Assembly (NCBI GenBank): GCA_021796835.1
Contig: JAKABO010000011.1
Coordinates: 1 to 64,000 of the forward strand
DNA length: 64,000 nt
DNA from: Pseudomonadota bacterium
Lineage (GTDB): Bacteria > Pseudomonadota > Gammaproteobacteria > Burkholderiales > Ferrovaceae
Direction of reading: 5' to 3'
Shown here: positions 8,842 to 34,690 of the stretch, piece by piece
How positions within the stretch are numbered: position 1 is the first letter of the stretch
How the letters are laid out: every line of letters starts with the position of its first letter
Position numbers and translations under genes: made by a program
Notes under the pieces: model-generated
Seen by the model: only the letters and a program-made list of their open reading frames with translations
Databases searched by the model: none
What the model was told of the DNA's origin: nothing

Positions 8842-9309
8842 TCAGGGGAGAGGCGCCTTCTTTTTGGCAAAGAAATCCTGAAGGGACTGGTAATCCCGTT
8901 CAAGAGAAAACTGCCCTTTATGAAAAACGAATTGCAGGCGCTTGCCTGCTGCATCCAGTCCGGTCAATCCGATGGAACGGCCGGAATAATCACGATACAC
9001 GTGGATATCCTTGAGTAGTTCGAGGCTCGTCCCGTTTTTCAGGTGGACACGCACGCAGGGCGCCTGGGGGTCGGCTTCCAGTCGAACGGGCGCCGTGGGA
9101 AGGCACAGCAGACGAGTCTTCAGCACCCGATTGGCGCCTGCAAACAGGAAAAAACAGGCCATGAACAGGAGCAGATAGGTAAGATTCGGGTTCGACGCGT
9201 ACCAGGCATTGGCGGCAAAGGCCCCCAGAGCGGAAACCGTGGGAACATAAAGCAACAGATCCCAGGTCATGCCTCGGGGATCTTTTTTCAATTGATAGGA
9301 GCGCAACAT
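8842..9309 (-). CDS. small membrane protein with C-terminal soluble domain, unknown
   Basis: Starting at the ATG at 9309 (MLRSYQLKKDPRG) the protein has 155 residues: two adjacent hydrophobic segments (about residues 20-60) followed by a beta-rich soluble domain with an ending KKKAPLP. Longer upstream frames would run into the preceding thioredoxin-like gene, whose stop is at 9350, so this start is chosen although its ribosome binding site is weak. The layout resembles small two-helix proteins with a PH-like domain, but this is not certain. It is the last gene of a minus-strand run with 9350-9862 and 9869-10959. Confidence 0.6.
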   Translation of the reverse strand: MLRSYQLKKDPRGMTWDLLLYVPTVSALGAFAANAWYASNPNLTYLLLFMACFFLFAGANRVLKTRLLCLPTAPVRLEADPQAPCVRVHLKNGTSLELLKDIHVYRDYSGRSIGLTGLDAAGKRLQFVFHKGQFSLERDYQSLQDFFAKKKAPLP

Positions 9310-9349
9310 AGGGATCTCAGGGGGGCTGACAAATGGGTCGGCAGACTCT

Positions 9350-9862
9350 TTACGGGAGGGAAGCCTGATGAGGGGCGGGTAGAACGGCTCGAATGGCTGC
9401 ATCCATTTCCTGATAAAGCATGGGGCCTGCCTGTTGATACCGGACGATTCCATGCGTGTCGATCACAAAGGTCCAGGGATCGCCCATCACGCGATAGGTT
9501 TTGAATGCTTCGGGGTTTTCATACTGGTCCATATGCAGAAACAGGACATTGGGCTGATATTTGTCAAGCATGGCCTTGGTGATTTGCAGTTGCCGATCGC
9601 AGACAGAACAATGACCGGGGGTGGCAAATTCGAGCAGGATGGGTTTTCCTGTGGCCAACGCCTGATCCAGCGAATACTGATACATGCGCGGGTCAGGCTG
9701 GCGATAGGTGGTCATGCGGCTGAGGTCTCCGCCGACATCGGCCAAGGTCTTGGTGGCCAGTCGAGGGGCCTGGGTCCCCAGGGCCAGTCCCAGGTCCTGC
9801 CGATTGCAGCCTCCCAGGGCGACGACCAGAACGATCAGGGAATACCTCAATTTGGATGTCAT
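9350..9862 (-). CDS. thioredoxin-like lipoprotein
   Basis: A 170-residue protein with a signal peptide and lipobox (VVALGGCNRQ, Cys at residue 19), followed by a thioredoxin fold: the strand ILLEFATPGH precedes a CSVC redox pair, and DPWTFVIDTHG supplies the cis-Pro-like strand. It would act as a membrane-attached thiol-disulfide protein in the periplasm, for example reducing cytochrome c or Cu-site cysteines. It lies six bases downstream of a truncated oxidase-like gene, consistent with a role in building a nearby redox protein; the substrate is unknown. Confidence 0.78.
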   Translation of the reverse strand: MTSKLRYSLIVLVVALGGCNRQDLGLALGTQAPRLATKTLADVGGDLSRMTTYRQPDPRMYQYSLDQALATGKPILLEFATPGHCSVCDRQLQITKAMLDKYQPNVLFLHMDQYENPEAFKTYRVMGDPWTFVIDTHGIVRYQQAGPMLYQEMDAAIRAVLPAPHQASLP

Positions 9863-9868
9863 GGGAGG

Positions 9869-10378
9869 TCAGGCTCCGTGCTTGCCAGTCTTGAAGATAT
9901 TATAGCCCCAGATGATGTTGGCCAGCAGAACCAACGTTCCGAAGAAGCCCACCCCACCCATCAGATGGGTGACGGTTTTTTCTATTTCCGGACCGGGGTC
10001 ATAGCCTCCGATGCTGCCTGCAATGGAGAACAGAACCACCATGCCCATCAGACCGATGTTGTGCATCCAGAAATGGATCTTGACCAGTTTGAGGCTGTAA
10101 ATCGGGCGATTGACCAGACGCGGGACAAAGTAGTAAATGGCGCCGAAAATGGCCATTTCCACCCAGCCAAGCAAATTGATATGCCCGTGCGCCAGCAGGA
10201 TGAGGTGACCATGGGGGGCCGAATCCACGAACATGCGAAAGGCAGGAATTCCCCCCATCAGAGCCCCCCAGGAAAAACCAATGATGGCGTAGGTAATACA
10301 GGCATACACGAATAACAGGGTGAAGGTCGTGTATTCCGGGTCATCGATGCGTTGGTCAAAAGAGGCGGGCGAAGACAT
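9869..10378 (-). CDS. truncated heme-copper oxidase subunit I-like membrane protein
   Basis: The 169-residue protein has about four hydrophobic segments and resembles only the N-terminal part of heme-copper oxidase subunit I. AHGHINLLGWVEM (His64, His66) corresponds to the CcoN segment VHVHAVIFGWISM at 20805-22211, and YYFVPRLVNRPIYS corresponds to the region after it. His102/His106 and His138 lie at the next two helix starts. The catalytic Cu-B histidines of full-length oxidases are absent because the later helices are missing. It follows the monoheme cytochrome gene by two bases. A paralogue is encoded at 32289-32813. Heme b binding is plausible but inferred. Confidence 0.75.
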   Translation of the reverse strand: MSSPASFDQRIDDPEYTTFTLLFVYACITYAIIGFSWGALMGGIPAFRMFVDSAPHGHLILLAHGHINLLGWVEMAIFGAIYYFVPRLVNRPIYSLKLVKIHFWMHNIGLMGMVVLFSIAGSIGGYDPGPEIEKTVTHLMGGVGFFGTLVLLANIIWGYNIFKTGKHGA

Positions 10379-10380
10379 GC

Positions 10381-10959
10381 TCAGGGTTTCTCCTTCTGAT
10401 TTTGACCTGCATCCTCGCGCAGATCGTGATATTCGGTTTTCCAGGAACTGGGAGCCCAGACCTTGACCATTTCATCCACGAATCCGGAGCGTTCCGGCAT
10501 GGGCAGACGGGCATCCGCGGATCCTTGCGTGGCTTTCAACTCTGACAGAAACACGGCGATGGAATGGATTTCGTTAGCCGGCAAGGCCGCCACATAGGCT
10601 GCTTCCTTGTTCAGACCATGGTCGACGGTTTTGGTTTCATAGGTGGACTCGGGTTTTTTCAGGAATGATTCGATGTAGTCCAGGGTATGTCGAGAGCCGA
10701 TACCGTCCAGGCCAACGCCGTGATTGGTCCCGTTACGCACGGCTCGATGGCAGTCAGTACAGCCCCTTTCACGAAACAGACGGGAGCCTACCTTCCCTTC
10801 CGCAGTGAAGTCAAACTGGGTGGTATTGGGGTACATGGGGTGGTTGAGGTGAGAACGGTAGATTTCCAGCATCACAAAACTGGACACGGCAAAAACGACC
10901 AGCAGTCCAAAGATGCCGAACAATATCTTTTCGCCCAGTTTCAAGGAGTTGAATTTCAT
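10381..10959 (-). CDS. membrane-anchored monoheme cytochrome c
   Basis: The 192-residue protein begins with an uncleaved-looking hydrophobic anchor (residues 13-33) and contains one heme c site, ERGCTDCHRAV, near residue 68. The remaining sequence (GLDGIGSRHT...) is a small class I cytochrome domain. It resembles membrane-tethered cytochrome subunits of heme-copper enzymes, loosely NorC- or CcoO-like, but is not a clear member of either. It is directly followed by the truncated oxidase subunit I-like gene, so the two may form a b/c-type electron-transfer unit. Confidence 0.8.
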   Translation of the reverse strand: MKFNSLKLGEKILFGIFGLLVVFAVSSFVMLEIYRSHLNHPMYPNTTQFDFTAEGKVGSRLFRERGCTDCHRAVRNGTNHGVGLDGIGSRHTLDYIESFLKKPESTYETKTVDHGLNKEAAYVAALPANEIHSIAVFLSELKATQGSADARLPMPERSGFVDEMVKVWAPSSWKTEYHDLREDAGQNQKEKP

Positions 10960-11054: not shown

Positions 11055-11795
11055 TTACCGGGTAGTATTCGGGACGCGTGTGTTCCCTTCCGTGGTGCGA
11101 GGGGCCGTGGCCAGATAGGTTGCGGCGTCGAGAATATCCTCGTCGCTCAACTTCTTGGCAATGGCACGCATCATGCCGTAAGGATCGTTGGCGCGGCTCT
11201 CATCCCGCCAGTTGTGCAACTGGTTGACCAGATAAGTGAACTTTTGTTCCCCGATGACCGGAAAAACTGGAGCTGCACCGCGACCGTTGTACCCGTGGCA
11301 AGACATGCAGGCCGAAACCTTGCCGCTGACGCCGTATTTGACCAGGATTTCACCCTTGTAACGGGTTCCGATGGGTTGGCCCCCATCTTTGATGGCCTGC
11401 AAATCCGACAATTCCTTGGGGTCAAGAGGAAGGGAATTGACGTAAGCCGAAACATCCCGCCGATCCTGGGGGGTGAGTTGCTGAGCAAACAAAGGCATGA
11501 CTGCCCCTGCCCCCGATGGGGTTCTCCGGCCTTCGGCCAAGTCCGTCAACTGCTTGACGATATAAGGAAAACCGAGATTGTTGAGACGGGGTGCCCCCAT
11601 GGCTTCCGTTCCCCATCCTGTGGCTCCATGGCAGGTCATGCACGCCGGAGCGGCGCCTTTCCCTTCCGTGAAGATCTTTTTGCCGTTGGCTGGGTCGCCG
11701 TTCATGACCCCTTCTTCTTCAGCCAGAGCCGTCATGCTCACCAGAGCCGCGGCCACAGCCAGCCCGGATGTGATCTTAGTGAATGACTTACGCAT
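11055..11795 (-). CDS. diheme cytochrome c4
   Basis: A 246-residue periplasmic cytochrome with a Sec signal peptide (cleavage after MTALA) and two heme c sites, CMTCHG and CMSCHG, in two similar domains (RLNNLGFPYIVKQL and FPVIGEQKFTYLVNQL are the matching helices). This is the cytochrome c4 family. It probably carries electrons between donors such as HiPIP or ACIII and oxidases. It is divergent from the HiPIP gene and ends in a strong terminator, so it is probably a separately expressed electron carrier. It is longer than the c4 at 6468-7088. Confidence 0.9.
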   Translation of the reverse strand: MRKSFTKITSGLAVAAALVSMTALAEEEGVMNGDPANGKKIFTEGKGAAPACMTCHGATGWGTEAMGAPRLNNLGFPYIVKQLTDLAEGRRTPSGAGAVMPLFAQQLTPQDRRDVSAYVNSLPLDPKELSDLQAIKDGGQPIGTRYKGEILVKYGVSGKVSACMSCHGYNGRGAAPVFPVIGEQKFTYLVNQLHNWRDESRANDPYGMMRAIAKKLSDEDILDAATYLATAPRTTEGNTRVPNTTR

Positions 11796-12220: not shown

Positions 12221-12526
12221 ATGGAAAAAGGTATCAAACAATCGCGCCGTCAGTTGCTCAAGATGGGCTCCATCGCTATCGTGGCAGCGCCGATGGCAGG
12301 CTTTACCACTTCGGCCTTCGCCAAGAAGAACACCGCCGTGCGGACAGCCTTGCATTTTCAGGACCATCCCAATGGGGAAAAGCAGTGCAATCGTTGCATG
12401 AACTTCATTCCCAACAAGGACAAGCCGACCGATCCAGGTGCCGTGCACGGGTGTAAACTCTACCCCGGGGACGATGAAATTTGCCCGACCTGCTATTGCA
12501 ACGGCTTCGTCGCAAAACCCAAATAA
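12221..12526 (+). CDS. high-potential iron-sulfur protein (HiPIP)
   Basis: The 101-residue precursor has a twin-arginine signal (SRRQLLKM, cleavage near residue 34) as expected for a protein exported with its cluster. Four cluster cysteines fit the HiPIP pattern: CNRC, then GCKLYPG, then a Cys in the final CPTCYC region, which has two spare cysteines compared with the usual single one. HiPIPs bind one [4Fe-4S] cluster and carry electrons in the periplasm, including in iron oxidisers (Iro-like). It is transcribed alone, with a terminator 25 bases downstream, just ahead of the ACIII operon. Confidence 0.9.
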   Translation: MEKGIKQSRRQLLKMGSIAIVAAPMAGFTTSAFAKKNTAVRTALHFQDHPNGEKQCNRCMNFIPNKDKPTDPGAVHGCKLYPGDDEICPTCYCNGFVAKPK

Positions 12527-12822: not shown

Positions 12823-13437
12823 ATGAATTACGGAAAAAGAATTTTTCTCTGGATCGTGCTGTTCTGGATCGGGAGTGCGCAGGTCTTTGCGGAGCCCTTT
12901 GTTCAGGGTGGCCCCATTGGTTCGCAAACCAGTGATGGGTACGATGCGCTGGGCCCGGTGGTGGAGCAACCCATCGAGTTTCCACATAACACCCACGCCG
13001 GACGCATGCAGATCAACTGCATGTACTGTCATACCTACGCGCGGCGCAGCAATGTGTCTGGAATTCCTCGTCTCGACAAATGTATGGGGTGTCACAATTT
13101 GATCGAAGGCGTCAAGGATCGTCCGCGGATCAAGAAATTGTTTGAATATTGGGAAAACAAACAGCCGATTCCCTGGAAAAAAGTGCATGACTTGCCTGAT
13201 TTCGTTCGTTTCAACCACGAGCGCCATATCCAGCGTTTTTATTTCCAGGAAAAACGACCCGTTCGTGAAGTCTGTGGGTACTGTCATGGCGATATTGCTT
13301 CCATGACGACGGCGCGGCGTGTCAAAGCCTTGTCCATGGGTTGGTGTGTCAGTTGTCACCAAAAGGATCATCTGGAGAAGGCGGGGAGCACGGTGACCAG
13401 TCACGGTCCCAACGATTGCTGGCTCTGTCATAAATAA
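12823..13437 (+). CDS. actA: alternative complex III subunit ActA, pentaheme cytochrome c
   Basis: The 204-residue protein has an N-terminal signal/anchor (residues 1-22) and exactly five heme c sites: CMYCHT, CMGCHN, CGYCHG, CVSCHQ and CWLCHK. Five hemes, size and position as first gene of the act operon identify ActA. In ACIII this periplasmic subunit receives electrons from the iron-sulfur subunit and passes them to ActE or to soluble carriers. The next gene follows after 27 bases with a ribosome binding site AGGAG at about 13452. Confidence 0.95.
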   Translation: MNYGKRIFLWIVLFWIGSAQVFAEPFVQGGPIGSQTSDGYDALGPVVEQPIEFPHNTHAGRMQINCMYCHTYARRSNVSGIPRLDKCMGCHNLIEGVKDRPRIKKLFEYWENKQPIPWKKVHDLPDFVRFNHERHIQRFYFQEKRPVREVCGYCHGDIASMTTARRVKALSMGWCVSCHQKDHLEKAGSTVTSHGPNDCWLCHK

Positions 13438-13464
13438 AACGGCGACCAAACAGGAGACGATGAA

Positions 13465-15672
13465 ATGACAATGAGTAATTTGGATCGCCGAGATTTCCTC
13501 AAGGTGTTGGGGATCAGTGGGGCCGCTGCCACACTGGCAGGATGTGGTCATACTTCCATCGAGTCAGGGGTGGAAGAGGTCATGTCTTACGTCCATCCTC
13601 AGGACTTCGTGGTGCCCGGCATCGGAGTTTTTTATGCCTCGACCTGCGCCCAGTGTGGTTCCGGCTGTGGAATCATGGGCAAGGTGCGCGAAGGGCGGGT
13701 TCTCAAACTGGAGGGAAATCCCGAGTCCGGAATCAGCGGTGGAAAGATTTGCGGGCTGGGACAGGCGGGCGTGCAAGCCCACTACAACCCGGATCGGTTG
13801 CGTACGCCCATGTATAAGGGTGAAGGGGGCTTGACCCCCGTATCCTGGGAGACGGCCCATCAGATCCTGGAACAACGTCTGGGACCAAACAGTCCGCTAA
13901 AAGGCGAAGAGATCGCTTTTCTGACCGGTGGGGTCAGTGGACACCAGCGGGTACTTCTGGAAAATTTCCTGGAAACCTTTGATTCCACTCATCATGTGAC
14001 CTACGATGCGCTCTCCACTGCCACGGGGAGAGCCGCCAGCAAGGCCATTCTGGGCGCGGAGCAGCCCCTCTGGAATATCCACAAGGCACGCCTGATCCTG
14101 TCCTTTGGTAACGATTTCCTGGGCAGCGGCGTCTCGCCGGTTTACATGGCACGCCAGTACGCGCTGTTTCGAAAGGCACCACGCGGTACCTTGATCCAGA
14201 TCGAGCCGCGCATGACCCTGACGGGAGGAAATGCGGATCGCTGGTATCCCATCAAGCCAGGGACCGAAGGAATTCTGGCCTTGGGCATCGCGCATGACTT
14301 GCTGCAACACGAAGAGTTCTCCAGGGGCGTTCCGCAGGAAATTCTCGATCTGGTCAAAAATTACGATCGGGATGCCGTGAGCGACATCACAGGGATCGGT
14401 TCCGATGCGGTACGCCTGATTGCGGCTCAACTGTGGAACAATACGCCTTCTCTGGTGATTGCCGGACCTTCGGTTGAAGGACATTCCTATGGGTTCAGCA
14501 ATGCGGCGGCCGTACAACTGCTCAACGTGATTCTGGGGAATCGGGGACAGACGATGGAGGGTCAGGCCGAACATCCCTTCCCTCAATTGACGCCTACCTT
14601 GGGAAGTTACCATGCGCTGGCTGACCTGAACCAGAAAATGGCCGCTGGAAAGACCCAGGCCCTGCTGGTTTATGGTACCAATCCGGTGTTCACGGCGCCA
14701 TCGCATCTGCCCTTTGCAGAATCCTTGAGCAATGTTCCTTTCAAGGTGGCTTTTGTCACGCACATGGATGAAACGGCGGGACATTGTGATCTGGTTCTAC
14801 CCCTGCTGTCCGCACTGGAAGACTTTGGCACCCATGTGGCCGAATACCAGCCGGATGGCGTGGAGGTGATGCTGCAGCAACCCCTGATGGAAAAACTCTA
14901 TCCCGAGTCCAAGGGGTACGGCGACATCCTTCTGGAAATATTGAAAAAACGCAAGCCGGAGGCCTACGCTGCATTTCCTGACTATTACAGTTATCTCAAA
15001 ACCGCGATGGTCAAGGCCAAGCCGGTTTTCAAGGTCAGCGACAGCGATGATCATTTCTGGGAAGACGCCCTGCGCAATGGTCTCGTCAAGTGGGATGGAA
15101 AACCGACCTCTCTGGAGGCCAGGCTGCCGGCGCTGACCATGCCGAAGCCCGCAGAACTGACGACGGACTACCCCTTCTACTTCGTCCCCTCCATCCGACC
15201 GGACATGCGCGACGGGCGTCATGCCTACCTGCCCTGGCTGCAGGAATCGCCTGAAACCATGACCACGGTGGTCTGGGACAGTTGGGTCGAGATCCATCCC
15301 AAAACGGCAGAGGCGATGCAGATCAAGGAAGGGGACATTCTGCAAATTCAGTCTGCCACCGGATCCGTGCGCGCCAAGGCCTATCTGTTTCCCGGCATTC
15401 AACCCGATACGGTATCCATGCCGCTGGGGCAAGGGCATACCCAGCTCGGACGGTTTGCCACGGGGGTCGGGGTGAATCCCTACAAGATTCTCGACCCGAT
15501 TTTTGACGATCATACCGGGGAACTGGCCATGCATGCCACGCGTGTGGCCTTGAGAAAAACAGGCGAACATCAGGTGGTCGTGAAGGACGAGGGCCCCACC
15601 ACCTTCCAGAACGGGCAAAAACTTGTCGCCACCTTGTCCGCTGACCAAGCCAAATTGTCCAAGGAGATCTAG
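13465..15672 (+). CDS. actB1: alternative complex III subunit ActB1 (molybdopterin oxidoreductase-like)
   Basis: The 735-residue protein has a Tat signal (DRRDFLKVLGISG) followed by a lipobox-like LAGC, then a [4Fe-4S] site CAQCGSGC...GGKICG near residues 62-95 and the catalytic-subunit fold of the DMSO reductase family. In characterised ACIII this subunit holds no molybdopterin. Most ActB proteins fuse this part with the ferredoxin-like domain; here the frame ends at 15672 and the ferredoxin part is a separate gene starting one base later. ATG 13465 (MTMSN) is chosen for spacing to AGGAG; 13471 is possible. Confidence 0.93.
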   Translation: MTMSNLDRRDFLKVLGISGAAATLAGCGHTSIESGVEEVMSYVHPQDFVVPGIGVFYASTCAQCGSGCGIMGKVREGRVLKLEGNPESGISGGKICGLGQAGVQAHYNPDRLRTPMYKGEGGLTPVSWETAHQILEQRLGPNSPLKGEEIAFLTGGVSGHQRVLLENFLETFDSTHHVTYDALSTATGRAASKAILGAEQPLWNIHKARLILSFGNDFLGSGVSPVYMARQYALFRKAPRGTLIQIEPRMTLTGGNADRWYPIKPGTEGILALGIAHDLLQHEEFSRGVPQEILDLVKNYDRDAVSDITGIGSDAVRLIAAQLWNNTPSLVIAGPSVEGHSYGFSNAAAVQLLNVILGNRGQTMEGQAEHPFPQLTPTLGSYHALADLNQKMAAGKTQALLVYGTNPVFTAPSHLPFAESLSNVPFKVAFVTHMDETAGHCDLVLPLLSALEDFGTHVAEYQPDGVEVMLQQPLMEKLYPESKGYGDILLEILKKRKPEAYAAFPDYYSYLKTAMVKAKPVFKVSDSDDHFWEDALRNGLVKWDGKPTSLEARLPALTMPKPAELTTDYPFYFVPSIRPDMRDGRHAYLPWLQESPETMTTVVWDSWVEIHPKTAEAMQIKEGDILQIQSATGSVRAKAYLFPGIQPDTVSMPLGQGHTQLGRFATGVGVNPYKILDPIFDDHTGELAMHATRVALRKTGEHQVVVKDEGPTTFQNGQKLVATLSADQAKLSKEI

Positions 15673-15673
15673 C

Positions 15674-16522
15674 ATGTCACTGAGCAATCTGATTCAGAAC
15701 TGGAACTCGTTTCGGACGCGTCGTCCCTATGAGGGGCAGTACGACGATGCCCCCTACAAGTGGGCCATGGTCATCGACCTGGACTCCTGTATCGGCTGTA
15801 ACGCGTGCACCGTTGCCTGTTATGCAGAAAACAATCTGCCTGTGGTGGGCAAGGAACGCTTTGGCAAGGGGCAGGCCATGCACTGGATCCGCATCGAACG
15901 TTACTGGGGGGAGGGGGATACCATGACCTCCGAATTCCCCGATCATGGCGCGCAATACCTGCCCATGCTCTGCCAGCAGTGCGAGGCGGCTCCCTGTGAA
16001 CCGGTCTGTCCCGTCGGTGCCACGCACCACTCGCCGGATGGTCTCAATACCCAGGTGTATAACCGGTGCGTGGGGTCGCGTTATTGTTCGGCCAACTGTC
16101 CTTACAAGGTTCGTTACTTCAACTGGTGGAATTACCCTGATCGGGCCTGGCCCAATCCGCTGGAATTGCAATTGAATCCGGACGTGACGGTGCGGAGCAA
16201 GGGGGTCATGGAAAAGTGTACGTTCTGCATGCAACGGTTGCGCGCGGGGATGGACAAGGCCAAGACCGAAGGGCGTATCCTGGCCGATGGCGAAGTGCTC
16301 ACGGCCTGTGCGCAGGCCTGCCCCACCTCCGCCATCACCTTTGGAAACCTGGCGGATAAAAAGTCCAAGGTGGCCAGAATGTGGAAAAATCAGCAGGTCG
16401 ATCTGGCCAAGGACAGTCAGGAAAAATCCGAGGAGGGGATTCGCGGTTACCGGATTCTGGAAGAGTTGAATACCTATCCGTCCATCGTGTATCTCGAACG
16501 CGTTCGCAATCTCGAGGCTTGA
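15674..16522 (+). CDS. actB2: alternative complex III subunit ActB2 (ferredoxin-like iron-sulfur subunit)
   Basis: The 282-residue protein is the four-cluster ferredoxin domain of the PsrB/DmsB type: CIGCNACTVAC near residue 35, CQQCEAAPCEPVCPVGA, CVGSRYCSANCPYK and CTFC...ACAQACPTSA. In ACIII these are three [4Fe-4S] clusters and one [3Fe-4S] cluster that lead electrons from the quinol site to the hemes. AAGGAG at 15661-15666 sets the ATG at 15674; a longer frame begins inside actB1. It lacks its own signal peptide, so it would be exported together with ActB1, as is usual for such pairs. Confidence 0.93.
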   Translation: MSLSNLIQNWNSFRTRRPYEGQYDDAPYKWAMVIDLDSCIGCNACTVACYAENNLPVVGKERFGKGQAMHWIRIERYWGEGDTMTSEFPDHGAQYLPMLCQQCEAAPCEPVCPVGATHHSPDGLNTQVYNRCVGSRYCSANCPYKVRYFNWWNYPDRAWPNPLELQLNPDVTVRSKGVMEKCTFCMQRLRAGMDKAKTEGRILADGEVLTACAQACPTSAITFGNLADKKSKVARMWKNQQVDLAKDSQEKSEEGIRGYRILEELNTYPSIVYLERVRNLEA

Positions 16523-16566
16523 GTTGACCCGCGCGTTCACGAATACCACCATTCAGGGAAAAAACC

Positions 16567-18030
16567 ATGAGTCATAGTGTTCATAGCCATCCTCAGCTGG
16601 ATGTGCAAGTTGAAAGAAAGTTCATCCCCAAGCAGAAGGATCTGGGGGCGGACGTTACCTGGGCCAAGATCAACAAGGATGTGCTGAAAAGTCTGGAAAA
16701 GCCGCGCCCCGTTTTCTGGGTGATTTTCTTTTCTGCCCTGGCCTTGTTTTCCTTTGGCGTTTACTGTGAGGTTTATCAGTATCAGAACGGAATGGGGGTG
16801 GCAGATTTGAACAACCCGCAGGTCTGGGGTTTATATATTGCCACCTTCATTTTCTGGATCGGGATGGGTCACTCCGGTACCCTGCTGTCCGCTCTGCTTC
16901 ATATCATCCATGCGGACTGGCGAAAACCGATCTATCGGTATTCGGAAGCCATGACCACCTTTACCTTGCTTACGGCTGCCCTGTTCGTGCTGGTGCACAT
17001 GGGACGGCTCTGGCAGTTTTACTATGTGGTGGCCTATCCCAACGAACGCTGGACCTGGCCTAATTTCACCTCGCCCCTGGTGTGGGATGCCACGGCCATC
17101 GGAACCTATCTGACCTCGTCACTTCTGTTCCTCTACATGGGGATGATTCCCGATCTGGCGATCTGTCGTGACAATGCCAGGGGAGCACGGCGGGCACTCT
17201 ACCGCTTTCTTTCCATGGGCTGGCAGGGAACCGACCGGCAGTGGGCCAATTTCAAGGTGGCCTACATGACCATGGCCTGCTTTCTGATGCCGCTGGCAGT
17301 TTCGGTTCACTCCATCGTGTCCACCGACTTTGCCGTGTCCCAGAACCCCGGCTGGCACGTGACGTCCTTCCCGCCTTATTTTGTGTTGGGTGCACTGTAT
17401 TCAGGATGCTCGGGCATCATTACCCTGTTCATCGTGCTGCGTTATGTCTTCCGTTTCGAAGCCTACATGACCCAGCCCATCCTGAACAAACTGATCAAGA
17501 TGACCTTCGCCATTGCCATGGTATGGACCTATCTGGATCTGATCGAGTATGCCACCACCTGGTACGGCAGCGATGAAGTGGCCAAGGCCGACCTGATTTA
17601 CCGGGCGACGGGGGATTATGCCCTGCAGTTCTGGGGAATGATTTTCTGCGCCATGGTGATGCCCTTCACCTTGTTGATCCGTTTCGTGCGTCACAACTAT
17701 GTGGTCTTGCTGATCATTTCACTGATCCTCAATGTGGGGATGTGGCTGGAACGTTTCCAGATCATTACGCCCACCTTTGCGAAATCGCACTACCCATGGA
17801 CATGGACGGCGGGCTGGTGGCCGAGTTGGGTCCAGTGGGGCATCGTGGCCGGGAGTTTTGGCTGGTTCACCATGCTCTTCATGCTGTACTGCAAAATCTT
17901 CCCCAGCGTGTCCATGTATGAAGTCAAGGAAATGGTGCACGAACAGAACATGGAAGAAAAGGCGCTTGCGGCACAGACAGATGTCCATGAAGCAGGCTTG
18001 GTGCCAGAAATGAAGGGAGGACAGGCATAA
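16567..18030 (+). CDS. actC: alternative complex III subunit ActC (NrfD/PsrC-like membrane protein)
   Basis: A 487-residue integral membrane protein with about ten transmembrane segments and the NrfD/PsrC fold, preceded by a hydrophilic N-terminus. It is the main quinol-binding membrane subunit of ACIII, next to the ferredoxin subunit. Typical motifs include FWIGMGHSGTLLSALLH in the helix region facing the quinone site. The stop TAA shares one base with the ATG of actD (TAATG), so translation is coupled. Length fits known ActC proteins. Confidence 0.94.
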   Translation: MSHSVHSHPQLDVQVERKFIPKQKDLGADVTWAKINKDVLKSLEKPRPVFWVIFFSALALFSFGVYCEVYQYQNGMGVADLNNPQVWGLYIATFIFWIGMGHSGTLLSALLHIIHADWRKPIYRYSEAMTTFTLLTAALFVLVHMGRLWQFYYVVAYPNERWTWPNFTSPLVWDATAIGTYLTSSLLFLYMGMIPDLAICRDNARGARRALYRFLSMGWQGTDRQWANFKVAYMTMACFLMPLAVSVHSIVSTDFAVSQNPGWHVTSFPPYFVLGALYSGCSGIITLFIVLRYVFRFEAYMTQPILNKLIKMTFAIAMVWTYLDLIEYATTWYGSDEVAKADLIYRATGDYALQFWGMIFCAMVMPFTLLIRFVRHNYVVLLIISLILNVGMWLERFQIITPTFAKSHYPWTWTAGWWPSWVQWGIVAGSFGWFTMLFMLYCKIFPSVSMYEVKEMVHEQNMEEKALAAQTDVHEAGLVPEMKGGQA

Positions 18031-18557
18031 TGAAAAAATCTCATACTCTGGCACTGTATGCGGATATGGATGAAGCGGCCAATGCCCTCAGGGAACTCAA
18101 GTCCTCCGGCATGTCGGGTTTCAGGATGGAGGACGTGGTGGTCAAATCCCCCATCGACCATCCTGAACTGAGCGAGTTGCTGGGCCCTCGTCCCGTCTAT
18201 ATCCAGTGGTTTACCTTGCTGGGGGTCCTGTTGGGCCCCACTACCGGGTTGGTGTTGATTGCGTCTGCCCAGGCCAGTTTCATCTATCAGGTGCGGGGCG
18301 GGCGACCGGTGGTTCCGCTTCCACCGGATATGGTGCTGACCTATGAGCTGTTCATCCTGTCCGGGGTGCTCATGACGGTTCTGGCGACTTTTGTGGCCAT
18401 GAAGTTGCCGGGTAACCGGAGCCCGCTTTATAACGCCAGCGTGTCCGAAGACAAGATCGGTATCCTGGTGAAGGCAGACCCGCAAAGCATTCCTCAGATC
18501 AACGAAATTTTGGGGCGTCACAAGCCTCTCGAAATCATGGGAGACCAAGCACGATGA
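18030..18557 (+). CDS. actD: alternative complex III subunit ActD
   Basis: A 175-residue protein with two central transmembrane helices (about residues 60-85 and 105-127) flanked by soluble parts that include GPRPVYIQWFT and an ending with two alpha/beta-like segments. This is the DUF3341 architecture of ActD, a structural subunit without cofactor. Its start overlaps the actC stop and its stop overlaps the actE start (ATGA). Confidence 0.9.
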   Translation: MKKSHTLALYADMDEAANALRELKSSGMSGFRMEDVVVKSPIDHPELSELLGPRPVYIQWFTLLGVLLGPTTGLVLIASAQASFIYQVRGGRPVVPLPPDMVLTYELFILSGVLMTVLATFVAMKLPGNRSPLYNASVSEDKIGILVKADPQSIPQINEILGRHKPLEIMGDQAR

Positions 18558-19102
18558 AATCCTTTACTCGCTGGATACCCATTCTGGCTCTGGTTCCCTC
18601 GGTCGCCCTGGCATGGCCGTGGAGCAAGGATATGGCCAATCAGATCAGCGTCAAACCCCAGGAGGGGCCGGATGCGGTGCGACCTTTTCCGGAAAATTCC
18701 GTGCCGATGTCCGGAACGCCGACCACCCCTTATGTGCACGATGGGGATGCGGCCATGAATCTGCCCAACCCCAATCCGCCTACTGAAAAGTCGGTGGCTT
18801 ATGGGCGTGAGATGTTCAAGATCTACTGTGTTCCCTGTCACGGAGACTCGGGTACCGGAGATGGCCTGGTAGGCGAGAAACTGATCGTACGCCCCTTTGA
18901 CCTGACGGCCCCCCGGGTTCAGAAGGAAGTTCCCGAAGGCTATATCTGGGGACATATCACCTTTGGCGGGGCGCTCATGCCCTCCTACGGGAATGACATG
19001 TCGCCTTCCGAGCGCTGGGATGTGGTGAATTATGTGCGACATGGTCTGTTGACAGATCCTACCGCCAAAAAACGCGACATGACCACCACCGAAAACAAAT
19101 AA
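18554..19102 (+). CDS. actE: alternative complex III subunit ActE, monoheme cytochrome c
   Basis: The 182-residue protein has a signal peptide (cleavage after VALA) and one heme c site CVPCHGDSG near residue 95, followed by FGGALMPSYGND with the probable Met ligand. This is the class I monoheme cytochrome of ACIII that exchanges electrons with downstream carriers or an oxidase. In many organisms ActE is lipid-anchored; a clear lipobox is not seen here. Its start overlaps the actD stop by four bases. Confidence 0.93.
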   Translation: MKSFTRWIPILALVPSVALAWPWSKDMANQISVKPQEGPDAVRPFPENSVPMSGTPTTPYVHDGDAAMNLPNPNPPTEKSVAYGREMFKIYCVPCHGDSGTGDGLVGEKLIVRPFDLTAPRVQKEVPEGYIWGHITFGGALMPSYGNDMSPSERWDVVNYVRHGLLTDPTAKKRDMTTTENK

Positions 19103-19120
19103 ACCACAAGGAGCCGCGCC

Positions 19121-20804: not shown

Positions 20805-22211
20805 ATGTTCAAGTACCTATTTGCGCGTAGCGAGGATATTCCGGAGGGATCGGCAGCGGTTTACTTCGGTTTCTCCGCGATTACCTGGTTTGTGATTGGA
20901 ACCGGGCTGGGTGCCTTCAATGCAGCCAAGTTGGCATTTCCTGATTTTGTCACGGGTCTCGAGTTCGTTTCCTTCGGTCACATGCGTCAGGTGCACGTTC
21001 ACGCCGTGATTTTCGGCTGGATTTCCATGGCTTTTGCCATGGCCATGATGTACATGACCCCGGCCCTGGGTAACACCAAGTTGTGGTCGGAAAAGTTGGG
21101 CATCTGGAATGCGTTTCTCTGGAATGTCGGGCTGTCGCTGGGACTGACGCTGTTGTGGTCCGGGATGACCTCGGGGCGGGAATATTCCGACTTCCCCTGG
21201 TTCATCGATCTGTACATTGCGACCTTCATGACCATTCCTTTGGGGATCAATGTCTGGATGACCGTCATTCACCGCAAGACGCAGGGGATCTACACCACCA
21301 ACTGGTTCTTTGCTTCTGCCGTGTTCATGGTCAGCATCGTGTTCATCGTGGGTAACCTGCCCGAGTGGTTCCATCTGACCGGGTTGACTGAAGCCTACCT
21401 GACCTGGTGGTTTGCGCACAATGTGCTGGGTCTGTGGATTACTCCGGTTGCAGCGGCCATTGCCTACTACACCATTCCCAAGGTGACCGGCAATCCGCTC
21501 TATTCACACCGGATCGGCCACCTGCACTTCTGGTCTGTGGTCGTGTTCTACTCCACCCCTGCTGCCCACCACCTGATGTCCGCTCCCCTGCCTGAATGGC
21601 TCAAGTCCTTCGCTTCGGTGGAAGGGGTGTTGATTCTGGTGCCAGCCGTTGCCTTCGTGTCCAACATTCTGTTGACCATGCAAGGGAAATGGAACATGTT
21701 CGTGGAAAACCTGGAAATCCGCTTCACGGTGACCGGCTGTCTGATGGCCATTCCGCTGAACATGCAAGGGGGCTTCCAGCAAACCCGTGCCATCAACTGG
21801 TACATTCACGGGACGGGCTGGATCGTGGCCCATGCCCACCTGGCTCTCCTGGGTTTCTCGACCTTCCTGGAAGCTGCCGCAGTCTACCTGGGTTTGCAAA
21901 CCCTGATGAAGCGTAAACTGTACTCTCTGACCCTGGGGAATCTGCATTTCTGGTTCCTGCTGATCGGATTCACCACCTACTGGGTGTCCATGACCATTGC
22001 CGGATTGATTCAGGGGGCTGGAAAGATTTACGAAGTCCCGTACATCGATGTGGTCATGGCTGAGCATCCCTACATGATTGCGCGCTGGATCGGTGGTTCC
22101 CTGGTGTTCACAGGAAACTGCTTCTGGCTCTACAACATGTGGATGACCGCACGCGCTGGGACGGTGATTCCAGAGGGACGCATGGCCCACGAACTGGCCT
22201 ACGAACGTTAA
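20805..22211 (+). CDS. ccoN: cbb3-type cytochrome c oxidase subunit I
   Basis: The 468-residue protein has about twelve membrane helices and all histidine sites of a cbb3 catalytic subunit: HMRQVHVHAVIFGW (low-spin heme), WWFAHNVLGLW (Cu-B and the Tyr region), STPAAHHLMSAP (Cu-B pair) and AHAHLALLGFST near the C-terminal heme ligands. It reduces oxygen to water at the heme b3/Cu-B centre with high oxygen affinity. A G-rich ribosome binding site (AGGGGGGG) precedes the ATG. ccoO follows after 36 bases. Length is close to the usual 475. Confidence 0.96.
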   Translation: MFKYLFARSEDIPEGSAAVYFGFSAITWFVIGTGLGAFNAAKLAFPDFVTGLEFVSFGHMRQVHVHAVIFGWISMAFAMAMMYMTPALGNTKLWSEKLGIWNAFLWNVGLSLGLTLLWSGMTSGREYSDFPWFIDLYIATFMTIPLGINVWMTVIHRKTQGIYTTNWFFASAVFMVSIVFIVGNLPEWFHLTGLTEAYLTWWFAHNVLGLWITPVAAAIAYYTIPKVTGNPLYSHRIGHLHFWSVVVFYSTPAAHHLMSAPLPEWLKSFASVEGVLILVPAVAFVSNILLTMQGKWNMFVENLEIRFTVTGCLMAIPLNMQGGFQQTRAINWYIHGTGWIVAHAHLALLGFSTFLEAAAVYLGLQTLMKRKLYSLTLGNLHFWFLLIGFTTYWVSMTIAGLIQGAGKIYEVPYIDVVMAEHPYMIARWIGGSLVFTGNCFWLYNMWMTARAGTVIPEGRMAHELAYER

Positions 22212-22247: not shown

Positions 22248-23204
22248 ATGGTCAATTTTAGAGAGTACAAGATCGGAGCGCGGTTTTTCGGTCTTGCCCT
22301 GGGTGGTTCGATGACGATCACCTTGTTTATGCCAAGTTTCGACTTGCGTAATGTGAATGCCACGGAGATGGCGCTGGACAAGCAACTGTGGGCCGGTCAC
22401 GAGTCCGGTTTCAGTCTGGATGATCCTTTCCTGACAGGAGAACATCGACCAGTCCGCGTGACCTTGAAGGTGGACCCGAAAACGGGGCAACCCATGGCGC
22501 CCACGGTCGCCTATGTTTATCCCGCAGGAACGCCCCTTCCCAATGGCGTGGACCACCCCGATAACCTCGGGAACATCGTGGAGCAATTGAGCCGGGACAA
22601 GGGTCGGATCGGTGAGGCGACCAAATCGCAAGGTGCCGTGTTCTTGCTGAGTTCCGAGCCTCAAGGAGATGGTTCCAAGCAGTTTTACATCGAAAATGCT
22701 TCGGCCACCAAGGGCTGGAATCCCGAAGAAGTCATGAAAGCGGCTGGAGATGAAAATACTTACCATGCTTCTTATGGAAAGAGCATTTTCGTGCGTGAAG
22801 GCTGCTGGTGGTGTCATACCCTGCTGCCGGAAGAAACCCAGGATTGGCAAGTGTTTGGTGCCCCTCCCATGTTAGGCGACTTCAATGGAGAATCCCCCAC
22901 CGCCTTTGGTTCTGACCGCAAGGCACCGGATATTCTGCATGTCGGGTCACGCAATTCGTCACGGGAATGGATGATGCTGCACTTCTTCAATCCCCGTCTG
23001 GTCCAGCCTCATTCCATCATGCCCCGTTTCGATTATCTGTGGGGACCGGTTGATGACAAGGGTCAGAAGATTGATTTTGACAAGTGGCGTGCCGAATACA
23101 ACGAGTATGTGGACGGAAAGCGGGTCACTCCGCCGGAAGTTCCCATGTATGCCAGCAATTCCGATGCCCGCGCGTTGATCGACTTCGTTCTGTCGCTCAA
23201 GTAA
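22248..23204 (+). CDS. ccoO: cbb3-type cytochrome c oxidase subunit II, monoheme
   Basis: The 318-residue protein has an N-terminal anchor (residues 12-30) and one heme c site in YGKSIFVREGCWWCHTL, matching the CcoO pattern EGCW.CH. Next comes the conserved HVGSRNSSREWMMLHFFNP and HSIMPRFDYLW segment with the Met ligand, all typical of CcoO/FixO. It passes electrons to CcoN. It is longer than many CcoO proteins (about 200-240 residues) because of an insertion of roughly 100 residues between the anchor and the heme domain (VDPKTGQPMAPTVAYVYPAG). Confidence 0.93.
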   Translation: MVNFREYKIGARFFGLALGGSMTITLFMPSFDLRNVNATEMALDKQLWAGHESGFSLDDPFLTGEHRPVRVTLKVDPKTGQPMAPTVAYVYPAGTPLPNGVDHPDNLGNIVEQLSRDKGRIGEATKSQGAVFLLSSEPQGDGSKQFYIENASATKGWNPEEVMKAAGDENTYHASYGKSIFVREGCWWCHTLLPEETQDWQVFGAPPMLGDFNGESPTAFGSDRKAPDILHVGSRNSSREWMMLHFFNPRLVQPHSIMPRFDYLWGPVDDKGQKIDFDKWRAEYNEYVDGKRVTPPEVPMYASNSDARALIDFVLSLK

Positions 23205-23277
23205 TTATCTGATACCAAACAGACTGCCCTTTTATCTTTGACGGGTATGGGGCAGTCGATAATAAGTGGAGGTCTCT

Positions 23278-23898
23278 ATGAGTAATTGGTCCTTTGATTC
23301 ACCCCTGCGCACCCTTTCTGATGAGGAAAAAGTCCGCAGAGATGAGAAACTGTGGGAGGATGACAACCTGGGTGGCGTGCATGAAGACAACAACCCGGTT
23401 CCCGCGCCTGTGGTCTGGTTGGTTGCTTTGACGGTGGTGACTGCGTTTGCCATTACCTTCCCACTCTGGGGACAACGTCCGACGGCGGCTTTGTATGAGC
23501 CTTACGTCAATTCCATGGACAAGCCCGAAGTTCTGGCTGCCAAGGATGACAAGGAAGCCATGGCCAAGATCGTGGAAATGAACAAGGGGACGCCGAATGA
23601 TGCCTTGCTGGAACGGCATCCCCTGACCATGGATGATCTGCGCATGATTGCCCCACAAATCAAGGCCCTGGAAGCCAAGGGTGCACACATGCATGATTTT
23701 GAAGTGGTGGGCGATCAGGTGGTCACGGCCAACTTCGAAGGGAATTATCGTCCGGATGGATCCCGTATTCGCCAGCAACCCTGGTGGGACAAGGGGTACA
23801 CCATCGATATTTTCTATCTGAGTTACTTCTTTTTGTCAGTATTTACCATGATCAAGCGGTTGCCCCCCACCACGTGGCAACCCAAGCATGATCACTGA
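23278..23898 (+). CDS. CcoP-N-like membrane protein without heme
   Basis: The 206-residue protein occupies the place of ccoP after ccoNO. It has a hydrophilic N-terminus (WEDDNLGGVHEDNNPVP) and one helix ending in FPLWGQRP, the pattern of the N-terminal anchor of CcoP, and a second hydrophobic segment near the C-terminus. It contains no cysteine at all, so the two heme c sites of normal CcoP are missing. GGAGG at 23269-23273 fixes the ATG at 23278. A shorter relative sits at 31447-31887. It probably replaces the structural part of CcoP. Confidence 0.75.
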   Translation: MSNWSFDSPLRTLSDEEKVRRDEKLWEDDNLGGVHEDNNPVPAPVVWLVALTVVTAFAITFPLWGQRPTAALYEPYVNSMDKPEVLAAKDDKEAMAKIVEMNKGTPNDALLERHPLTMDDLRMIAPQIKALEAKGAHMHDFEVVGDQVVTANFEGNYRPDGSRIRQQPWWDKGYTIDIFYLSYFFLSVFTMIKRLPPTTWQPKHDH

Positions 23899-24527: not shown

Positions 24528-24809
24528 ATGGGCAATTACCTTGATACCTTACCCGATGGGTGGACGATCTACCTGTGGCTCGTGGCGGGAGGGCTCATCA
24601 TCGCCGTGAGTATTTATGGCATACGCTGGGGTTCCAAAAACGAACAATTCGACGAAGACATCAAGTATCTGGTGTTCAAGGAAAGCGACAAGGACAAGAT
24701 GAGTCCGGAGGAATATGCCAAAAGTCGCGAGGTGCTGGCAAAACAGGAAGCCCGGCGGGCTGAAGTATTGGCAGAACATGCAGCAGCCAGGACAACCAAG
24801 ACGACATGA
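24528..24809 (+). CDS. CcoS-like oxidase assembly protein
   Basis: A 93-residue protein with one N-terminal helix (about residues 15-33) followed by GSKNEQFDEDIKYLVFKE, which resembles the CcoS/FixS pattern of a helix, Trp/Arg, and then G.FDD.. before a short acidic tail. CcoS is needed for cofactor insertion into cbb3 oxidases. The C-terminal extension is charged and helical (EEYAKSREVLAKQEARRAEV), longer than in standard CcoS. CAGGAG at 24517-24522 selects the ATG at 24528. Its stop overlaps the next start (ATGA). Confidence 0.6.
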   Translation: MGNYLDTLPDGWTIYLWLVAGGLIIAVSIYGIRWGSKNEQFDEDIKYLVFKESDKDKMSPEEYAKSREVLAKQEARRAEVLAEHAAARTTKTT

Positions 24810-25300
24810 AACGGGGTGAATGGGTCGTGCTGGGCCTGATTGGGGCGCTGGCGCTGGCGGGTGTCGTGCAAAATATCATCCATCATGAAAAAGGTGCCCA
24901 GGACGTCGATCGTGGCCTGCCTTTTTATACGACGGCCACACCGGAACTGGCACGGGAAGGGTCGGATTTGATCCGGCAGAATGACTGCCGTCAGTGCCAT
25001 TCGCTTTGGTCCGTTCGCAATGTCATGCAGTCGGTTCCTTCCCCTTCACTGGATGGCATGGGCGATTTACGGAGTGAGGCCTGGCTTTACCAGTATCTCT
25101 CCTCCCCACACCCCCAGGCTATTTTACCCAGCCGCCTCAAGCCCGAGTATCGGATGCCCTCCTTTGCCTCGCTGCCCGAACAGGAAAGAAGGACACTGGC
25201 CCATTATCTGGCCAGCCTGCATGTCAAGGACTGGTATCTGGATGACATCAAAAAGAGTGAATATGAAAAACTCACGGGGAAGGATGACTACAAAAAATGA
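24806..25300 (+). CDS. membrane-anchored monoheme cytochrome c
   Basis: The 164-residue protein has an N-terminal hydrophobic anchor (residues 5-23) and one heme c site, NDCRQCHSLW, near residue 61. Met-containing segments follow (EYRMPSFASL). It is translationally coupled to the CcoS-like gene before it and to the membrane protein after it (ATGA overlaps at both ends). Because the nearby oxidase has no heme-bearing CcoP, this cytochrome is a candidate electron donor or third subunit; that role is inferred. Confidence 0.8.
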   Translation: MKRGEWVVLGLIGALALAGVVQNIIHHEKGAQDVDRGLPFYTTATPELAREGSDLIRQNDCRQCHSLWSVRNVMQSVPSPSLDGMGDLRSEAWLYQYLSSPHPQAILPSRLKPEYRMPSFASLPEQERRTLAHYLASLHVKDWYLDDIKKSEYEKLTGKDDYKK

Positions 25301-32275: not shown

Positions 32276-32294
32276 GGTTCCGGCAAACCTAGTC
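32270..32294. terminator. inverted repeat spanning two convergent stop codons
   Basis: GACTAGG (32270-32276) pairs with CCTAGTC (32288-32294) around eleven bases. Each arm contains the TAG stop of one of two converging genes. There is no T-run, so a bidirectional terminator is only possible. Confidence 0.4.
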
Positions 32295-32813
32295 TTCGGC
32301 GCGGGTGCTTTCCACCGGACCCATCAGGGTCAGGACGATATTGGAGAAGTAGACCATGAACCCCACCGCCATGCAGGTGCCGGCAACGGCCACGATAGGG
32401 CCGTAGAAATGGTGTGCATGGGTCATGGCCGCGCGGTCATGGAGCATCAGGTACCCCTCCCAGATGCCAAAGACCATTTGGGTGGCATAAAACCCGTAGA
32501 CGCCGAGGAACAACCACCAGAAGGAATGCTGAACCAGACGCTGGGAATAGATGCGTTTGCCGCTCAAACGCGGAAGCAGGTAATAGGTGGTGCCCATGGC
32601 CAGGGTGACCACGCCGCCCACCAGATTCATGTGGGCATGGGCCAGGGGGTCGATCATGTGTCCCGGACCGCCGTAGGGGCTCCCGATGGAATCGAGCCAG
32701 GCCCGGATGGGGGGGAACACCTGGAGCATTCCGTGCATGGCTCCGATGAAGAGGGAAGTGGCAGAAACGATGAAGAATTTGACTAAACGGCGAAGGTCTG
32801 AGAGCGAATGCAT
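32289..32813 (-). CDS. truncated heme-copper oxidase subunit I-like membrane protein (second copy)
   Basis: A 174-residue protein paralogous to 9869-10378. It keeps the helix with AHAHMNLVGG (His59, His61) and YYLLPRLSGKRIYS, followed by His96 in QHSFWW and a helix starting with His132, His134 and His135 (MTHAHHFYGP). The ATG at 32813 is preferred because the 16 residues before it are not conserved. As in the other copy, helices with Cu-B ligands are missing. It is separated by a terminator from the SCO1 group upstream. Function unknown; heme b binding is plausible. Confidence 0.72.
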   Translation of the reverse strand: MHSLSDLRRLVKFFIVSATSLFIGAMHGMLQVFPPIRAWLDSIGSPYGGPGHMIDPLAHAHMNLVGGVVTLAMGTTYYLLPRLSGKRIYSQRLVQHSFWWLFLGVYGFYATQMVFGIWEGYLMLHDRAAMTHAHHFYGPIVAVAGTCMAVGFMVYFSNIVLTLMGPVESTRAED

Positions 32814-33163: not shown

Positions 33164-33802
33164 TTATTCGCTCGCCAGAATGGCCTGGGTATCGCGGAAC
33201 AAACCGTCCGGGGTCTGAGGCATCTGAAAGGATGCCTGGAGGCGGCCTGCGGGGTTGAACAGGAAGATCGTGCTGCTGTGATCCACCGGATAGTTTCCCC
33301 GCCCATCCCGCTCCTGGTCATGCAGGACGGCATAAACCCCCAAACTCTGGGTGAAGGGCTTGAGTTGGGCAGCGGTGGCCTGGGCACCGATGAAAGAGGG
33401 GTCGAAGGCGGGGACATACTGCCCCAGAACGGACAGGGAATCGCGCCCGGGGTCCACGGAAACGAATATGACCTGAGGTGCGGGGTGCCCTCCCTTTTTG
33501 AAGGATCGGGAGACCGAGGCCAACAGGGCCAGATCGGTGGGGCAGACATCAGGACAGTGGGTATAGCCGAAGAGCAGATAGGTCCAGCGTCCCGTCAGGG
33601 ATTCCTGGGTCAGGATGCCCTGGGTGGAAGGCAGGGAGAAGGGGGGCAAGGAGGGCCCCCGAGCCAGCCACTGCGTCCGGTCCCCCAATCCCTGGGGCGG
33701 GGCGGGTTGGTGCCAGAAGAAGAACCCCAGCCCCCCCAACACGAGGAGTGCCGCGCCGAACAGAAAAATGACGGATGGAGAGGATCGGCTGCCTGTCCTC
33801 AT
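33164..33802 (-). CDS. SCO1/SenC-type copper chaperone
   Basis: The 212-residue protein has an N-terminal membrane anchor (about residues 12-33) and a thioredoxin-like domain with GYTHCPDVCPTD (CxxxC copper-binding site) and the third ligand His in NYPVDHSSTIFLF. SCO proteins deliver copper to oxidase Cu-A sites or reduce thiols. The cbb3 oxidase here has no Cu-A, so it may serve another oxidase or act in Cu-B loading. The start at 33802 overlaps the stop of the FGE-like gene by four bases; longer frames are not supported. Confidence 0.9.
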   Translation of the reverse strand: MRTGSRSSPSVIFLFGAALLVLGGLGFFFWHQPAPPQGLGDRTQWLARGPSLPPFSLPSTQGILTQESLTGRWTYLLFGYTHCPDVCPTDLALLASVSRSFKKGGHPAPQVIFVSVDPGRDSLSVLGQYVPAFDPSFIGAQATAAQLKPFTQSLGVYAVLHDQERDGRGNYPVDHSSTIFLFNPAGRLQASFQMPQTPDGLFRDTQAILASE

Positions 33803-34575
33803 TGATCTCGAACCACACGGAATCCAATGGTATCGACCCGCACGGTGGGGGCATCGGCTGTGCGCCGACTCAAGGCGAGATCGTGGGCGTTGTTGTTCCA
33901 TGACCCCCCTCGCACGACCCGTGACAGGCATTCCCCATCCTGCTCGGCCGCATCGCCTTCCCAGGCCGCCCCGTTGTCTGGAACGCTGCGCCGATCATCC
34001 TGGTTGATGAACCGGGTACTCTGATAGCAATCTTCCATCCACTCCCACAGATTACCGCTCATGTCATACAGTCCCCAGGCATTGGGGGCCTTGGTGGCCA
34101 CGGGATGGGGGTGATTGGCGCTGTTCTCCCCATACCAGGCGATGGGATCGAGGGTATTGCCCCCGCAATAGGGGGTGGTGAGCCCGGCTCGACAGGCATA
34201 TCCCCATTCGCTTTCGGAGGGCAAGCGGTAATGCCGTCCGGTCCTGGCGTTGAGGCGCAGGATATACACCTGGGCATCCTCCCAACTGACGCGGTCCACG
34301 GGACAGTTGTCGCCACAGAGGGGAAAGGAACTGGGATTGCGGTGCATGAGTGCGCGCCATTGCCCCTGGGTGATCAGGGTGGTGCTCATCATGAAGGGTT
34401 TGGAAAAAGTAACTTTTCCCCCGCCGTTGAGAACGAAACTTCCCGCTGGAATCAGGGTCATCCCCGGGCAGTCAGGGCAGTCCTGCGCCTGGGTGGGTCT
34501 GGAAGGGGAAGCCGCGCTGGCGAGGGAAAGGACGAGTAGCAGTCCCCCCAATGCTTTGGAACTCAAACTGACCAT
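33799..34575 (-). CDS. exported FGE-sulfatase-domain protein
   Basis: From the ATG at 34575 the product has 258 residues: a signal peptide (cleavage near SLASA or TQAQ), then an FGE-type domain with IPAGSFVLNGGG, YRLPSESEWGYACRAG, MSGNLWEWMED and VVRGGSWNNN. Eight cysteines (DCPDC, CGDNC, YAC, YC, DC, EC) suggest disulfides in the periplasm. The catalytic Cys pair after RGGSW is absent, so a true formylglycine activity is unlikely. It is translationally coupled to SCO1. The paralogue at 25810 lies in the ccoNO region. Confidence 0.85.
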   Translation of the reverse strand: MVSLSSKALGGLLLVLSLASAASPSRPTQAQDCPDCPGMTLIPAGSFVLNGGGKVTFSKPFMMSTTLITQGQWRALMHRNPSSFPLCGDNCPVDRVSWEDAQVYILRLNARTGRHYRLPSESEWGYACRAGLTTPYCGGNTLDPIAWYGENSANHPHPVATKAPNAWGLYDMSGNLWEWMEDCYQSTRFINQDDRRSVPDNGAAWEGDAAEQDGECLSRVVRGGSWNNNAHDLALSRRTADAPTVRVDTIGFRVVRDQ

Positions 34576-34690
34576 AGGACTTCTCCCCAAAAGAACCGAA
34601 CGGGTGAATCCGTTCCGTGGAGGTTTCAGTTTATCCCACTCCCGTTGGGATGAAAAGAGGGCGGCAACGCAAAGAAGGGATGGGTGAAAG

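Follow-up and report, generated by a model that had tools for sequence, protein, structure and literature searches.

The window, a 64,000-nucleotide stretch of contig JAKABO010000011.1, comes from a 2.1 Mb Ferrovaceae genome in 64 contigs and encodes two small membrane proteins, mini1 and mini2, each of which is a four-helix, single-unit homolog of the heme-copper oxidase (HCO) catalytic subunit, together with a cbb3-type oxidase (Table 1). The first-pass annotation had placed a four-helix protein with a conserved HxH helix at positions 9869–10378. The 169-aa open reading frame that fills this interval is real, but it is encoded on the minus strand (10378..9869), the plus strand having a stop codon in the matching frame. 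The protein carries the motif AHxHxNLLGW in keeping with the HxH helix described, and the codons of its conserved histidines fall at approximately 10189–10181 (H64/H66), 10075 (H102), and 10063 (H106). The genome is Ferrovum-like, and one of the closest named organisms in the genome collection, Ferrovum myxofaciens P3G, has a mini1 of 98% identity.

Table 1. Genes of the mini1 operon, the cbb3 oxidase, and the mini2 locus in the window.
Feature	Coordinates	Strand	Basis or remark
Small membrane protein (DUF), last operon gene	8842..9309	minus	
Thioredoxin-fold lipoprotein, invariant HCxxCD motif	9350..9862	minus	
mini1, single-unit HCO homolog, four helices	9869..10378	minus	ORF, Pfam, AF2, profiles
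Monoheme cytochrome c, membrane-anchored (N-terminal), one CxxCH	10381..10959	minus	
Diheme cytochrome c4-like protein, periplasmic, first operon gene	11055..11795	minus	
CcoN of distal-type cbb3 oxidase	20805..22211	plus	full-length alignment with solved CcoN
CcoO, monoheme	22248..23204	plus	
CcoP-like subunit without CxxCH heme motif	23266..23898	plus	
Second membrane-anchored monoheme cytochrome c, RMPS motif	24806..25300	plus	beside CcoNO
mini2, second four-helix single-unit HCO homolog	32289..32813	minus	
SCO/SenC-like thioredoxin-fold protein, upstream of mini2	33164..33931	minus	sequence only

The gene for mini1 is the third in a five-gene operon of nearly invariant order, encoding the diheme cytochrome c4, the membrane monoheme cytochrome c, mini1, the thioredoxin-like lipoprotein, and the DUF protein, whose likely start is Met49 of the listed reading frame 9453..8842. 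Gaps of 2 bases between the monoheme cytochrome and mini1 and 6 bases between mini1 and the thioredoxin-like gene suggest a single transcript. Neighbors were tallied at 80 named mini1 loci, with loci having enough flanking sequence as denominators, and were compared only to the window's own genes, such that an unrelated nor gene nearby could be missed. The membrane cytochrome was directly upstream of mini1 at all loci (75/75), which bears out the pairing proposed by the first-pass annotation, while the thioredoxin-like gene (79/80) and the DUF gene (75/77) followed downstream. The diheme c4 was present at 64 of 65 loci, the exception (L160) being a zetaproteobacterium.

In the region that usually supplies the axial methionine, the partner cytochrome has an invariant histidine, H114 (131/131), making bis-His ligation (H71/H114) likely. 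It is a clear paralog of the second membrane-anchored cytochrome encoded beside CcoNO (hhalign, 1e-42), which contains RMPS, a stretch characteristic of methionine ligation; as a relative of CcoO it was rejected, the match being weak (E = 1.3e-4) compared to that with its paralog. In the thioredoxin-fold lipoprotein, a possible chaperone for thiols or copper, H110 and D112 are kept in at least 95% of relatives. In Ferrovum, an alternative-complex-III-like gene set (12823–20125, plus strand), accompanied by a HiPIP-like protein (12221–12526), is directly divergent from the mini1 operon. Identity of the operon with the iron-responsive Slit_1321–1324 of Sideroxydans was ruled out by the gene content described for the latter (a cytochrome b, an extracellular hypothetical protein, a monoheme c, a diheme c, and Hsp33).

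By both sequence similarity to subunit I and helix fold, mini1 is a member of the HCO superfamily. It matches the Pfam COX1 profile above the gathering cut-off (E = 2.5e-14, positions 309–405 of 436), as do all 36 aligned relatives. Against the NCBIfam equivalog for cbb3 subunit I (ccoN, TIGR00780), it aligned to positions 333–406 of 474 and scored 42.1 bits compared to a cut-off of 583, and is thus not a CcoN by that model. Neither NCBIfam nor Pfam holds a dedicated model for the family, and no homologs were found in viral contigs or plasmids. The AF2 model built with 36 relatives (mean pLDDT, 91) has four transmembrane helices, as had been claimed, at residues 14–43, 58–88, 96–123, and 130–165, and Foldseek returned CcoN structures as its top match (probability, 1.00; TMq, 0.79), confirming the anticipated likeness to HCO helices. 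Compared to CcoN (3mk7), the model gave a Z-score of 16.3 and an rmsd of 4.6 over 161 residues, and VIA-align superposed it on helices IX–XII of CoxI (Rhodobacter sphaeroides CoxI 375–524). With 169 aa and four helices, mini1 lacks the 12-helix, three-unit core of an HCO catalytic subunit.

The earlier claim that the protein aligns only with the first third of CcoN does not hold, as both the COX1 and CoxI alignments place it on the last third. When the window's own CcoN was cut into its three units for profile-profile comparison (hhalign), mini1 matched the third unit best (E = 5.4e-16), followed by the second (1.5e-6) and the first (2.6e-6), and the three units hardly recognized one another in the same comparison. 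A PDB profile search gave CcoN (E = 3e-13) with three in-order matches, the third unit again the best, and NorB (4xyd) at E = 1.9e-8. As the profile matches all three thirds of CcoN in order, mini1 represents one of the units repeated in the HCO core with its threefold pseudosymmetry, and is most similar to TM IX–XII. The resemblance to the first third (E = 4e-8 in the CcoN of the same genome) is real and secondary, since the oxidase is itself built of three related blocks.

Amongst 134 distinct mini1 sequences, H64, H66, all residues from N68 to F78 (including E74), H102, H106, and N107 were essentially invariant, with H56 variable and replaced by phenylalanine in many Zetaproteobacteria. H64 and H66 correspond in the alignment to the HxH of CcoN helix X, the high- and low-spin heme ligands, and the alignment covers helices IX–XII, in agreement with the first reading that the histidines suited to heme are kept and the CuB helices missing. 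mini1 has neither the helix-II ligand of the low-spin heme nor the CuB/FeB ligands found on helices VI and VII, and therefore cannot act as an oxidase by itself. H106 is specific to mini1, and H102 has a counterpart in the ‘HFW’ of CcoN helix XI, a histidine that is no known heme ligand, so conservation alone is no proof of heme binding. By the positive-inside rule, R87, R91, and K100 between TM2 and TM3 and an acidic TM3–TM4 loop would put H64 and H66 near the periplasmic side. Residues 68–78 of TM2 have zero entropy throughout and are invariant on all faces, with TM3 conserved on one side. The absence of a variable, lipid-like face on this stretch suggests that TM2 is buried within an oligomer, like helix X in HCOs.

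Within the Ferrovum family, where most searched genomes have an ortholog, dN/dS for mini1 was 0.004–0.05 at synonymous distances from 0.4 to >2. The gene occurred in 34 of 369 genomes of the class sample, from 15 family groups, and in 45 of 398 genomes of the phylum sample (the window's own genome counted). The carriers are iron-, nitrite-, and sulfur-oxidizing bacteria, and those with names include Ferrovum, Gallionella, Sideroxydans, Candidatus Nitrotoga, metagenome-assembled genomes (MAGs) of the Chromatiaceae and Ectothiorhodospiraceae, and Zetaproteobacteria. This strong purifying selection and the spread through about 15 gammaproteobacterial family groups plus the Zetaproteobacteria agree with the proposal that mini1 is not a broken oxidase, and the gene was intact in almost every genome. 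In one incomplete MAG (G020; L027/L147), mini1 is spread over two frames, a frameshift or possibly an assembly error, and a 79%-identity match on a 5.5 kb contig in a bin labeled Rhizobiales (L125) is probably a binning error.

Distal cbb3 oxidases have been reported from iron oxidizers (PMC7029218, PMC8788666, PMC10734462), which are reported to carry proximal and distal types (PMC7029218, PMC8788666). The window's CcoN aligns over its full length with that of Pseudomonas stutzeri, with histidines at the ligand positions of helices II, VI, VII, and X, and is labeled distal-type on the basis of its ~31% identity to ordinary CcoN and the literature on iron oxidizers rather than placement in a published tree. 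The CcoP-like sequences of this oxidase had no CxxCH motif in any of 36 cases. Of the 369 class genomes, 31 have a CcoN of at least 78% identity (in one of them divided into two pieces), and mini1 is present in every one of the 31. Only three class genomes had mini1 without such a CcoN: one has an 80%-identical CcoN piece on a broken contig (G346), and the others are drafts of 780 (G136) and 410 contigs (G251). Genomes of the class sample possessing only a CcoN of 30–34% identity lacked mini1 (Fisher p ~5e-42 for mini1 and distal CcoN across 369 genomes, without phylogenetic correction). mini1 is thus obligately associated with the distal-type cbb3 of chemolithotrophic proteobacteria, and the stand-alone unit of the first-pass annotation has to be given up, as a full distal-type cbb3 and a second mini-HCO are always present where genome completeness allows a judgment. 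At 20 of 37 loci CcoN is no more than 9 kb away from mini1, and mini2 at 11 of 37. In Ferrovum the operon adjoins the alternative-complex-III genes instead of CcoN, and in three genomes (G337, G081, and G229) it is distant from ccoN yet kept.

The second homolog, mini2 (174 aa; AF2 pLDDT, 86; four helices), shares 37% identity with mini1 across 114 aa (profile E = 8.8e-17), and the best structural matches of its model are CcoN. Its motif GPGHMIDPLAHAHxN is invariant or nearly so, and neither family shows any variation in the HxH pair at the heme-ligand positions. mini2 was present in 35 of 35 class genomes tested (the 34 mini1 carriers and G095) and in 6 of 6 phylum-sample genomes, and in none of 25 control genomes with ordinary CcoN only. 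G095 has a 58%-identical CcoN beside its mini2 relative (contig C157, L195) and no mini1, a possible intermediate state that suggests mini2 may be the older partner. In the window the mini2 gene is convergent with a gene for a CcoG-like ferredoxin. An analogous pairing of SenC with a small reading frame occurs in norSY-senC-orf1, where the source gives no description of orf1.

Proteins of this kind are known. Single-evolutionary-unit HCO homology (HCOH) proteins of four helices, closest to HCO TMHs 9–12 and related to all three units, were reportedly described in 2014 by Pei, Li, Kinch and Grishin, who are said to have proposed homo- or heterotrimers and a link to NO and denitrification. mini1 shares with them the four TMHs, a gene of its own, the closest similarity to TMHs 9–12, and a relationship to all units, and it and mini2 may be amongst the families listed there; both differ in that their link is to a cbb3 oxidase and a cytochrome operon and not to denitrification. 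PMC4602095 cites the trimer proposal and presents MAPEG trimers and YgdD as four-helix homotrimers resembling the HCO core. The weak structural match of mini2 to a MAPEG protein (LTC4 synthase, 3leo; Z = 9.1) is within the range expected for helical bundles. Compared to CcoN (3mk7, 6xkw, 9g83), mini1 corresponds in sequence and fold to helices IX–XII and keeps HxH at the b3/b positions, but has four helices rather than 12. Weak matches to DUF2871 (PF11070) were found in 27 of 36 mini1 family members (best, 3.9e-5); the window's mini1 covers the 134-position model nearly end to end, with a score below the gathering threshold. Styrene oxide isomerase is a trimeric membrane enzyme with heme b bound at subunit interfaces via H58 (PMC11374702); like mini1 it is a small helical membrane protein, with H58 located early in its second helix, but it has no detected sequence match and performs epoxide isomerization, and Foldseek matched its structure (8pnu) to mini2 only, weakly (E = 0.48, TMq = 0.40). 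The strict coupling of two mini-HCOs and a presumed bis-His cytochrome to the distal cbb3 appears to be new, with no paper describing it found in a literature search that fell short of most subscription journals.

The tentatively preferred interpretation, held with somewhat less than even confidence, is that mini1 is a heme-b-binding oligomer which together with the membrane cytochrome forms an accessory b/c electron-transfer module for the distal cbb3. mini1 would oligomerize in the membrane, as a homotrimer or as a heterotrimer with mini2, and so restore the threefold layout of HCOs, and heme b would sit at the subunit interfaces, bound by H64/H66 of TM2 near the periplasmic side in a geometry that has a precedent in styrene oxide isomerase. 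This heme may exchange electrons with the upstream-encoded cytochrome, presumed bis-His, with the diheme c4 as a putative soluble carrier, and the module would serve an oxidase whose CcoP-like subunit is without c hemes. In a considerably more doubtful extension, both minis, possibly joined by a third copy, would assemble into a heteromeric, HCO-like b-heme complex split over separate proteins that, with the same cytochrome, is an unrecognized electron-transfer partner of the distal cbb3. The separate genes would then preserve an organization that could, by fusion, have given rise to the 12-helix subunit I.

The strongest rival, less probable than the electron-transfer module and on balance unlikely, casts mini1, and mini2 with it, as a maturation chaperone of the distal cbb3 that holds heme b or templates CcoN helices during heme/CuB insertion, partnered by the thioredoxin-like lipoprotein for mini1 and the SCO-like protein for mini2. 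Because both minis adjoin thioredoxin-fold proteins, that of mini1 with its invariant HCxxCD, assembly is nearly as good an explanation as electron transfer, and the strict co-occurrence with one oxidase type and the retention of the operon far from ccoN in three genomes are also consistent with it. However, the conserved operon consists mostly of electron-carrier cytochromes, not typical Cco assembly genes, and the membrane cytochrome is as conserved a neighbor as the thioredoxin-like protein. It is improbable that the minis are cofactor-free structural subunits that pack on CcoN, stabilizing the complex or docking cytochromes, with their histidines as relics: conservation on all faces of TM2 suggests tight packing on another protein and the obligate co-occurrence with the distal cbb3 would fit, but an invariant HxH at heme-ligand positions in both families is unexpected for relics. 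It is very unlikely that mini1 helps to detoxify or reduce nitric oxide, a function suggested for other HCOH proteins; the association of those proteins with NO and denitrification reportedly made by Pei et al. and the profile similarity to NorB point towards it, but mini1 follows the cbb3 oxidase in its distribution, lacks the FeB ligands, and has cytochrome and cbb3 genes as its conserved neighbors, as tallied against the window's own genes.

In a tree of repeat units, the third units of distal and proximal CcoN grouped together (94/83) with both minis outside, on long branches, so that the minis would predate the split between the two oxidase types' third units. An origin of mini1 from the distal third unit was not rejected by the AU test (p = 0.31; with mini2, p = 0.19), and the grouping of mini1 with mini2 had support of only 63/68. 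The minis may descend from an ancestral unit or from an ancient fission. That mini1 came from the neighboring CcoN by decay or by recent fission is scarcely credible: its closeness to helices IX–XII and the AU result would allow fission, but the low dN/dS, which excludes a decayed fragment, the intact gene in almost every genome, and, for a recent event, the position outside the third-unit clade in the best tree all argue against it.

Given the obligate mini-HCO pair and the cytochrome operon, the working distal cbb3 oxidase of iron oxidizers probably contains or needs more than CcoNOP, and the strict partnership gives the function of mini1 a concrete test. Living single-unit relatives likewise make the origin of HCO subunit I from a trimer of four-helix proteins testable. 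Other genes lie around the oxidase and mini2. Proteins resembling formylglycine-generating enzymes (SUMF1-type) were read from the sequence at 25810–26868 (plus strand) and 33799–34746 (minus strand), and a large membrane protein whose soluble half resembles spermidine synthase is encoded inside the cbb3 cluster at 27507–30131 (plus strand), by the same kind of reading. Most relatives for which the sequence extends far enough also have the SUMF1-type protein of 25810–26868 in their cbb3 cluster.
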